Assembly (NCBI GenBank): GCA_020853525.1
Contig: JADYYS010000033.1
Span: forward strand, 1 to 64,000
Direction: 5' to 3'
Source of the DNA: Ardenticatenales bacterium
Lineage (GTDB): Bacteria > Chloroflexota > Anaerolineae > Epilineales > Epilineaceae
Length of the DNA: 64,000 bases
The translations under genes were made by a program, and so were the position numbers. Shown here piece by piece: positions 15,391 to 18,534 of the stretch. The notes below the pieces were generated by a model. That model was not told the DNA's origin. It saw only the letters and a list, made by a program, of their open reading frames with translations, and did not search any database. Each line of letters starts with the position of its first letter. The stretch's first letter is position 1.

Positions 15391-16317
15391 CTACGCCCCC
15401 GTCGCCACCCCACGCCCCGGATCGACGATCCACTCCGACCACGACCCCGCGTACAGTCGCGGCAGCGGCCGTCCGGCGTGCGCCGCGGCCAGCACGAGGT
15501 GGGCGGCGGTCACGCCCGAGCCGCAGTAGACGATCGCCACCGCCGGGTCGGCACCGGCCAGCGCCGCGTCGAAGCGGGCGCCGAGCACATCCGGCGGCAA
15601 GAAGCGGCCGTCCGATCCGATGCCGCCCGCGAACGGCATCGACACCGCGCCCGGGATGTGCCCGGCCACCGGATCGATCGTCTCGTTCTGCCCGGCGAAC
15701 CGGTCCGCCGCCCGCGCGTCCAGCACGCGCACCGCGCCGCCTGCCGCAGCCGCCGCCGTCACATCGGCGTCGACGACCATCCCCGGACGGGGGCGCGCCA
15801 CGAACGTCCGCGCCGCGCGGTGCTCGACGCCGCCGCGCACCGCCTGCCCGGCCGCCAGCCACGCCGGCCAGCCGCCGTCGAGAACCGCGACGGCGTCGTG
15901 CCCGAGCCACTTCAGCAGCCACCACAGCCGCGCCGCGAACGCGCCGCCGACGTCGTCGTAGGCCACGACCTGGGTCGCCGCGTCGATCCCCCAGCCGCCG
16001 AGCGTTGCGGCCGCCGCCTCGGGCGTCGGCAGCGGGTGGCGGCCGGTGACGCCGGGGACGGTGGGCGCGCTGAGGTCGTTGTCGATGTGGGCAAAGACGG
16101 CGCCGGGGATGTGCGCCTCGGCGTACGCGGCCGCGCCCCAGGCCGGGTCGGCGAGGCGGTGGCGGCAGTCGACGATGGCCACGTTGGCGACGTCGCCTTC
16201 ACCCGCGTCGATGCCCACGTCGATGCGCGCGGCGAGCGCACGGACGTCGACAAGCGTCTTCCACGGCTGCGGCGACGGGGCGGGCTCGGACGGTGGGCGA
16301 TCGAGCGGCGTCGTCAT
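15391..16317 (-). CDS. Two-domain rhodanese (thiosulfate/mercaptopyruvate sulfurtransferase)
   Basis: A 308-residue protein with two rhodanese domains. The N-terminal non-catalytic domain includes VAIVDCRHRLADPAWGAAAYAEAHIPGAVFAHID, and the C-terminal catalytic domain holds the active-site loop VIYCGSGVTA-type sequence (here VYCGSGVTAAH, about residue 260) and HIPGAVSMPF. CGSGVTA is the loop usual for thiosulfate-class enzymes. It transfers sulfane sulfur between donors and thiophilic acceptors in the cytoplasm. ATG 16317 is preceded by TAGAAT at eight bases. It lies directly downstream of the predicted selenoprotein on the same strand. Confidence 0.9.
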   Translation of the reverse strand: MTTPLDRPPSEPAPSPQPWKTLVDVRALAARIDVGIDAGEGDVANVAIVDCRHRLADPAWGAAAYAEAHIPGAVFAHIDNDLSAPTVPGVTGRHPLPTPEAAAATLGGWGIDAATQVVAYDDVGGAFAARLWWLLKWLGHDAVAVLDGGWPAWLAAGQAVRGGVEHRAARTFVARPRPGMVVDADVTAAAAAGGAVRVLDARAADRFAGQNETIDPVAGHIPGAVSMPFAGGIGSDGRFLPPDVLGARFDAALAGADPAVAIVYCGSGVTAAHLVLAAAHAGRPLPRLYAGSWSEWIVDPGRGVATGA

Positions 16318-16378: not shown

Positions 16379-18469
16379 CTACCGAAGCAGGGCGGTCGGG
16401 GCCTCTTTGGCCAGTTCCGCTTGGACCGCCGCCAGCAAGCCGTCGGGGTCGTACTCACGGGAGACGTAGGCGATCTTGCCGTCCTTGCCGACGACGACGT
16501 CGACCGGGTAGGGGTTCAGCCCTTTGAAGTTCTTCACGAGCGCCTTGTACGTCGGCGTGTCGGGGCTCTCGAGCCCGATCGGATACGTGACCCCGCTCGA
16601 CGCGGTGAACGCCTGCACGCCGTCGGCCGCATCGCCGTTCGGATCGATCGCCGCCACCACCACGCCCTGATCCTTGAACTTCGTCCAGATCCGATCCTCG
16701 ATGTCTGGCAACTCCAGACTGCAGACCGGTCAGAAGGTGGCGAAGTACGCCAACACCTGCACATTCCCCGTTCCCTCGGCGGTCGACCACTCGGAGCCGT
16801 CGAGGAGCGTGACCTTGGTCTCGGGCAGCGTGCGCCCGATGCCGAGGCCCTCGCGGTTGACGGTCAGATAGGCGGTTCGCTTCGGTTGGTCGGGATCGTC
16901 CGACCAGATATGGAGGTTGCTCCACGCGGTGTCGGTGGCGGCGGCGGTGTAGCTGAGCTGCAGCGTCGTGCTCATGCCCGGCCCGACCTGGACCTGCTCG
17001 GGGCTGACGGTGAAGGCCTCGCCTTCCGTCCAGTTGCCGAACAGGTTCAGCGGCGCCGTGCCCTGGTTCGTCACCATGAGCGGCACGGTCCTCGTCTCGC
17101 CGGCCGCCACGAGGCCGAAGTCGATCGTGTTCGCGTCCTCCGGCAGGAGCAGGTTGGGCGCCGTGCGGTCCGCCAGCATCCGGTAGCTGTAGAGCACCCA
17201 CCAGTTGCCGATGAAGACGATGTCCTCATGGGCGGCGATGCCGAGGTTGCGCACCGTCACGGGCGGGCGCCCGGTGTCCAAATCGCCCGCGTTCGCGCCG
17301 TACGTCGACTGCTGGGTCTGGCGCGCCGCGCCGATGAACTTCGGCGCGGTCGGATCCGACACGTCGTAGGCCCGCGCATCGTTCCAGGCGGCCACGAAGG
17401 CGCGGCCGGCCGAGTAGTCGACGCGGATGGCCGTGCCGGGCATGGGGGCCTGACCGACGACCTTGGGCGCGGTGGGGACCGAGGCATCGACGAGAACGAG
17501 GCCTGCCGAGCCCGCCGCGACGTAGGCCATCGTTCCATCGACCGCCAAGCCGCGCGCCACGCCGCCCGTGTCGGCCTTGCCGAGGAGCCTCGGCACCGTC
17601 GGGTCGGTCACGTCCACCGTGACGAGCTCGCCGGCCAGGGTCGTGAGGTACGCCGTCGTGCCTACGACACGCAGGCCCCACGTGCTGCCGATGTCCTTCA
17701 GCTCGCCGACGCGCGAAACGACGTTCGTCGCCGGATCGCGCTCGTAGACGCCGAGCCCGTCCTTGGCCAGCGCGACGTAGATGATCCCGTCGGCGACGTC
17801 GATGCCTTCATAGCTGACGCCCGGCTCCTGGAGGACCGGGATCTGCTCGGGCACCATCTTCTTGTCGTCTTTGGGGTCCGTCTTGGAGATGTCCCAGCCG
17901 CTCAGGAACGCCGGGTTGCTGAGGTTGCCGCGGTGGGTCGTGTAGACGATGTCACCGTCCCAGGCCAGGTGGATGCAGCCGGGACTGCGCTCGTCGTCCG
18001 GCACCTTGTGCTTGATGTTCTGCGCCAGGTAGGTCATGTTGGCGGGGTCCTTGGCGTTCACGACCCCGAACGTGTAGCTGCACTGGAACAGCTTCTGGTC
18101 GCTCGCCCGATAGCGGACCTCGTCGACGTGAAGATGGGTCTTCTCGCCCTCAAGCCGCTGCAGGCGGGCCAGCGGCGGCAGATACTGCCCGGGCGTGAGC
18201 CGCACCTCGGCCCGTTCCTCCGGCGCCGCGTCCCCCTGCCCTTCGCCGCCCCTCGCCTCGCCGCCGGGCACACCGTCGCCGGTCGTACCCGCCGACGATG
18301 CCGGCGCCACCGCGTCGGGCGCCGTCGCCGCCGGCGCCAGATCGTTCGCGGCGCATCCCGCCAGCAGCATCACCGCCAGCACGCCGATCAGCGCCGCCCG
18401 CAGCCGTACCGCCCGGCCGGCGGCCGAACCTGGGTCCAACCGCCGAAGCGATTGCCGCATCCGTTTCAT
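16379..18469 (-). CDS. Predicted selenoprotein: LVIVD propeller lipoprotein with Ig-like and Sec-redoxin (UPVC) domains
   Basis: One reading frame of 696 codons interrupted only by TGA at 16730-16732 (codon 580). Order: signal peptide with lipobox LLAGC (Cys39); LVIVD-type beta-propeller (about 95-430; VTVDVTDPTVPRLLG, LVLVDASVPTAPKVVG, ARAYDVSDPTAPKFIG); Ig/ASH-like domain (about 440-545); TlpA/AhpC-type redoxin (about 550-696). The UGA falls at the first Cys of the family motif FATxCPxC: FATF-UGA-PVCSLELP, with Cys583 kept and a later cis-Pro segment NPYPVDVVVGKDG. A SECIS-like hairpin follows. UGA is an ordinary stop elsewhere here, so recoding must be local. GGAAGGA precedes ATG 18469. 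Likely an extracytoplasmic membrane-attached redox enzyme. Alternatives are a nonsense mutation or a sequencing error (TGC to TGA); the exact catalytic position argues against these. Confidence 0.8.
16703..16732 (-). promoter_or_regulatory. UGA codon and bacterial SECIS-like hairpin
   Basis: After UGA (16732-16730) come ten bases, then GUCUGG (16719-16714), loop AGUUG (16713-16709) and CCAGAC (16708-16703), a perfect six-pair stem. The loop begins 16 bases after UGA and has G as its second base. Both properties fall in the published bacterial SECIS pattern (loop 16-37 bases from UGA, a G in the first two loop positions). Confidence 0.65.
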
Positions 18470-18534
18470 GTCGGATCCTTCCTGGAAGTGGTGGGTCAAC
18501 GCTGCACCGCAACGTCGGGCCACATGGCCGCGTC

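Follow-up and report, generated by a model that had tools for sequence, protein, structure and literature searches.

A probable selenocysteine-containing redoxin domain at the C-terminus of a predicted LVIVD and ASH domain lipoprotein in an Ardenticatenales bacterium

Redoxin-type selenoproteins with a UxxC active site are already known in bacteria. The UxxC proteins of Pfam family PF00578, which are peroxiredoxin-like thiol:disulfide oxidoreductases, constitute a listed bacterial selenoprotein family (PMC13188914, PMC9312934, PMC1088965), and UxxC forms are likewise listed for the redoxin family PF08534 and for the thiol-disulfide isomerase-like family cd02966 (PMC13188914). Proteins of the ResA/TlpA type are associated with the provision of reductant outside the cytoplasm (PMC3961690).

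We investigated a 64,000-nucleotide window from an Ardenticatenales bacterium (class Anaerolineae, phylum Chloroflexota; contig JADYYS010000033.1), and identified a minus-strand frame of 696 residues with a single internal TGA, at codon 580 (Table 1). The initial annotation had described this frame as open except for the one TGA, with normal coding sequence on both sides and with UGA as a normal stop nearby, and each of these points was borne out. The GC3 value is 0.92 before the TGA and 0.89 after it, indicating that the coding character persists downstream, and the Pfam AhpC-TSA match crosses the TGA. Five neighbouring genes (DUF58, PMT, acyl-CoA dehydrogenase, MetE-like and site-2-protease genes, all but PMT named by inspection) use TGA as their ordinary terminator, and we therefore rejected a wholesale reassignment of UGA in this genome. 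We consider it very probable that the product is an exported lipoprotein with selenocysteine (Sec) decoded from UGA580, which would act as a thiol-disulfide oxidoreductase. Ordinary gene calling would truncate this protein at residue 579, with the loss of the enzyme domain.

Table 1. Coordinates in the window of the candidate selenoprotein gene, its parts and its surroundings.
Feature	Position	Strand	Evidence
Candidate selenoprotein gene, 696 aa with Sec580	16379..18469	-	ATG at 18469, TAG stop at 16379-16381; translated with TGA as U
AGGAAGG, ribosome-binding-site-like, 5' of the ATG	18477..18483	-	sequence read
Signal peptide with lipobox LAGC (Cys39), predicted lipoprotein	18353..18469	-	inspection of the translation, no signal-peptide program
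LVIVD repeat, top-scoring stretch, residues 302-339	17453..17566	-	Pfam PF08309, E 2.4e-13
ASH/HYDIN/choice-of-anchor-D Ig-like domain, residues 446-531	16877..17134	-	Pfam PF22544, E 2.9e-9
AhpC-TSA/redoxin domain, TlpA/ResA-like, residues 544-668	16466..16840	-	Pfam PF00578, E 3.3e-13; AlphaFold; Foldseek
TGA, putative selenocysteine codon, Sec580	16730..16732	-	translation, homologue and PDB alignments
TGC, putative resolving Cys583 of the UxxC motif	16721..16723	-	translation, homologue alignment
bSECIS-like hairpin, 6-bp stem GUCUGG/CCAGAC, loop AGUUG	16703..16719	-	loop start 16 nt past the UGA
Pro655, cis-Pro opposite the active site	16505..16507	-	invariant column P125, alignment A1
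Rhodanese-like sulfurtransferase gene, ATG at 16317	15391..16317	-	Pfam PF00581, E 1e-25

The same TGA might instead reflect an assembly error, the true codon being TGC or TGT, or a nonsense mutation in a young pseudogene that makes the first 579 residues only. One third-position substitution suffices to create it, and we found no close orthologue for comparison at codon 580. However, stop codons can be reached by 174 single-base changes, distributed over 140 codons of the gene, of which one turns a Cys580 codon into TGA, so that the chance of striking this codon is about 1 in 170, in line with the previous view that a chance nonsense mutation here is unlikely. Error or mutation would also leave unexplained the intact downstream frame with its normal GC3, the Sec-using SelD and the parallel UxxC redoxins of related genomes, and a downstream hairpin of a kind that synonymous recodings seldom produce, and we regard this explanation as highly improbable.

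The predicted selenoprotein is composed, in order, of a lipoprotein signal, an LVIVD propeller-type repeat, an ASH/HYDIN Ig-like domain and the C-terminal Sec redoxin. The signal sequence and LAGC lipobox agree with its earlier designation as a surface lipoprotein, here as a prediction. Homologue matches extend the resemblance to LVIVD-type proteins of relatives over residues ~244-388, and the Ig-like domain additionally matched the NCBIfam choice_anch_D model, at a score under its cut-off. The redoxin domain scored 50.1 bits against PF00578 (cut-off 26), with a UxxC active site, and was above the cut-off of PF08534 as well. Among 84,980 species genomes we found no close relative of the whole protein, the only match being a weak one of the LVIVD part in Candidatus Poribacteria. 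None of the class genomes sampled showed the order of lipoprotein signal, LVIVD, ASH and Sec redoxin, the matches listed there covering essentially the redoxin part, and a search of the open-access literature for LVIVD with redoxin or selenocysteine returned nothing relevant. The architecture looks new, absence from these samples being no proof of uniqueness.

This domain order bears on a further explanation, under which the UGA is a regulatory switch, such that low selenium yields a 579-residue lipoprotein of propeller and ASH domains, selenium adds the redoxin, and both forms are functional. Termination at codon 580, which lies past both N-terminal domains, would indeed leave them complete. 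However, the position of the TGA is explained by the domain order alone, nothing specific backs a function of the short form, and we judge such a switch improbable.

For the redoxin domain, the invariant columns in an alignment of 34 homologues from the class and phylum include residue 580, Cys583, the Glu three residues past Cys583, and Pro655. Residue 580, in the local context YFATF-U-PVCSLELP (motif UPVC), also aligns with the first Cys of the ResA-type CxxC in PDB sequence matches. The TGA had been annotated at the first catalytic Cys of the domain, upstream of a normal cis-Pro segment, and both assignments hold. The AlphaFold model has a pLDDT of 89 for this domain and places residue 580 directly before the first active-site helix, and the best structural matches by Foldseek were 2ls5 and ResA. 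The domain scored 47.8 bits against the NCBIfam model for ResA proper (NF002854), under the curated cut-off of 170. On the model of ResA/TlpA-type proteins, the C-terminal domain is most likely an extracytoplasmic thiol-disulfide (selenol-disulfide) oxidoreductase, anchored as part of a lipoprotein. It has a TlpA/ResA-type thioredoxin fold, in which nucleophilic attack would come from Sec580, at the N-terminal end of the first active-site helix. Cys583 would supply the resolving thiol, and the active site would be shaped by Pro655 as the cis-Pro.

Alternatively, Sec580 may be genuine in an enzyme that is mainly a peroxidase of the peroxiredoxin-like kind, as AhpC-TSA is the best redoxin-type model in Pfam for this domain, and Sec increases peroxidase activity in other selenoproteins. 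Against this, the motif FATFUPVC places UxxC at the TlpA/ResA position, accompanied by the cis-Pro, and does not contain the TxxU (or TxxC) of peroxiredoxins, and the nearest sequences and folds are ResA/TlpA oxidoreductases. We thus consider a mainly peroxidatic role unlikely, and favour the thiol-disulfide oxidoreductase.

We examined which codons homologues use at position 580, a comparison that the initial annotation had proposed. TGA occupies the equivalent column in UxxC redoxins of seven other genomes sampled from the class and phylum, and TGC or TGT is found at this column in all of the other 32 redoxin homologues examined. An in-frame UGA where homologues have Cys is expected of a bacterial selenoprotein, and is seen here. 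The TGA forms of the class were located by scanning 396 genomes with a degenerate DNA motif of the type aromatic-x-x-[ST]-x-TGA-xxC-xx-E, which matched in 11 genomes (a reversed control pattern matched in 0). Six of these matches proved to be genuine redoxins, namely the window gene together with five small lipoprotein-like proteins with the motif FW[AT]TWUP[YH]CR (G053, G013, G109, G086 and G146). In a second scan, which covered 400 phylum genomes, two more emerged, G495 (FWASWUGPC) and G544 (FFATWUTTC), and the reversed control pattern matched once. The representatives G109, G495 and G544 all matched PF00578. The scan matches in G317, G097, G171, G341, G095, G406 and G702 were discarded as short frames without a redoxin domain. 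Among the TGA-containing redoxin homology matches checked, only G053:C502:12975 is a real UxxC, while those of G053:C502:16095, G099, G065 and G085 proved to be ordinary C-terminal stops, and G006:C130 gave no local match. A plasmid search returned only ordinary Cys-type TlpA/ResA matches.

Different fusions of TlpA-type redoxins were apparent by inspection elsewhere in the class. Many genomes seem to have such a domain at the C-terminus of a long, CcmF-looking membrane protein, and other redoxins are fused to PpiC/SurA-like or CcdA-like parts (L052, L053, L054, L055, L057, L059, L062, L063, L064 and L079).

In the domain tree, the window redoxin has a long branch of 2.5 changes per column, with at most 32% identity to its homologues. 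The Sec forms do not resolve as a single clade, and three changes of the Sec label are required, so that the tree, with placement uncertain, does not point to one origin of Sec. The pattern is compatible with repeated exchange of Cys and Sec in TlpA-type domains.

The machinery for selenocysteine insertion, for which a search had likewise been suggested, is complete in the host genome (4.27 Mb, 96.9% complete, 0.2% contamination). We identified a tRNA-Sec (anticodon UCA) at 68.3 bits, which exceeds the Rfam cut-off, a full-length SelB (325 bits), SelA (537 bits) and SelD (362 bits). SelD carries a TGA of its own at the UxxK position (CAGUASK), a motif known for Sec-containing SelD (PMC13188914), and the organism thus appears to use Sec elsewhere. 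This gene (L083:1401-2327; G000:C30:144400-145326, minus) has a possible bSECIS hairpin 32 nt downstream of its TGA. A clear tRNA-Sec is present in most genomes of the class, with 56 of the 60 searched over the Rfam cut-off; its presence is therefore necessary but not discriminating, and we dropped it as a correlate of Sec redoxins. UxxC redoxins are placed in several members of a class in which tRNA-Sec is near-universal. Unlike nearly all its relatives, G053, which has a clear UxxC redoxin (L076:1838-2287, C502), gave a best tRNA-Sec of only 49 bits (E 1.8e-8), possibly due to a gap in an assembly that is 88% complete. In the host, a TlpA redoxin gene of the Cys type (L001:547-1413; FWATWCVPCRHE) is followed after ~90 nt by the tRNA-Sec gene (L001:1501-1596, G000:C26).

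We additionally identified a bSECIS-like hairpin directly after the UGA. Published rules for bSECIS elements specify a loop of 3-9 nt, a stem of 4-16 bp, a spacing of 16-37 nt and an MFE <= -7.5, with a G within the first two loop positions and a G or U preferred next (PMC13188914), and the hairpin at the UGA580 codon satisfies all of these. An equally good hairpin arose in 0.36% of 5000 synonymous recodings drawn from the gene's own codon usage, and in 0.02% with the preferred GG/GU loop. However, the gene is GC-rich, and a hairpin that conforms to the rules also follows 20% of its other codon positions (11% when the preferred loop is required). The hairpin alone is therefore moderate, supporting evidence. 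In the homologue set, six of the seven Sec codons and five of the 32 Cys codons precede a hairpin that has the preferred loop and an energy of -4.9 kcal/mol or better, and the two groups differ when ranked by synonymous-recoding p-value (Mann-Whitney p 5e-5), although the comparison overstates independence, as four of the Sec genes come from one related group of small lipoproteins. It is very likely, from the sequence evidence, that Sec is inserted at codon 580. Decoding of UGA580 would rely on tRNA-Sec, SelA, SelB and SelD, the adjacent downstream hairpin directing SelB, and a full-length enzyme is predicted.

Finally, a rhodanese-like gene on the same strand begins 61 nt past the selenoprotein stop, and is a possible operon partner; a shared operon and any connection with sulfur compounds are guesswork. 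The propeller-like LVIVD domain and the ASH domain would keep the enzyme on the cell surface, or offer it to a partner. We tentatively suggest, as a reading about which we remain in some doubt, that this is the first surface lipoprotein in which a Sec redoxin is fused after an LVIVD propeller and an ASH domain, providing a selenium-dependent enzyme outside the membrane, possibly for redox chemistry of sulfur compounds coupled to the rhodanese.

Compared with known systems, the window protein resembles the peroxiredoxin-like PF00578 selenoproteins, whose motifs are UxxC or UxxU, in having Sec as the first residue of its UxxC and a bSECIS-like element immediately past the UGA. It differs in its divergent redoxin domain, and in the LVIVD and ASH domains that precede this domain in a lipoprotein of 696 residues. 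It shares superfamily and motif with the listed UxxC selenoproteins of PF08534 and cd02966. With Bacillus ResA (1su9, 4nmu) and the TlpA-like protein 2ls5 of B. thetaiotaomicron it has the fold, the position of CxxC and the cis-Pro column in common, whereas those proteins have Cys in place of Sec, and the matched chains are without LVIVD or ASH domains. The initial annotation had proposed a new selenoprotein, and those of its refuting conditions that we examined all turned out in favour of the proposal: the machinery, the homologues and the hairpin support its identification as a selenoprotein, but the catalytic family was already known. As UxxC redoxins of PF00578 and PF08534 are already listed, what the locus adds is a new domain architecture, and not a new catalytic family.
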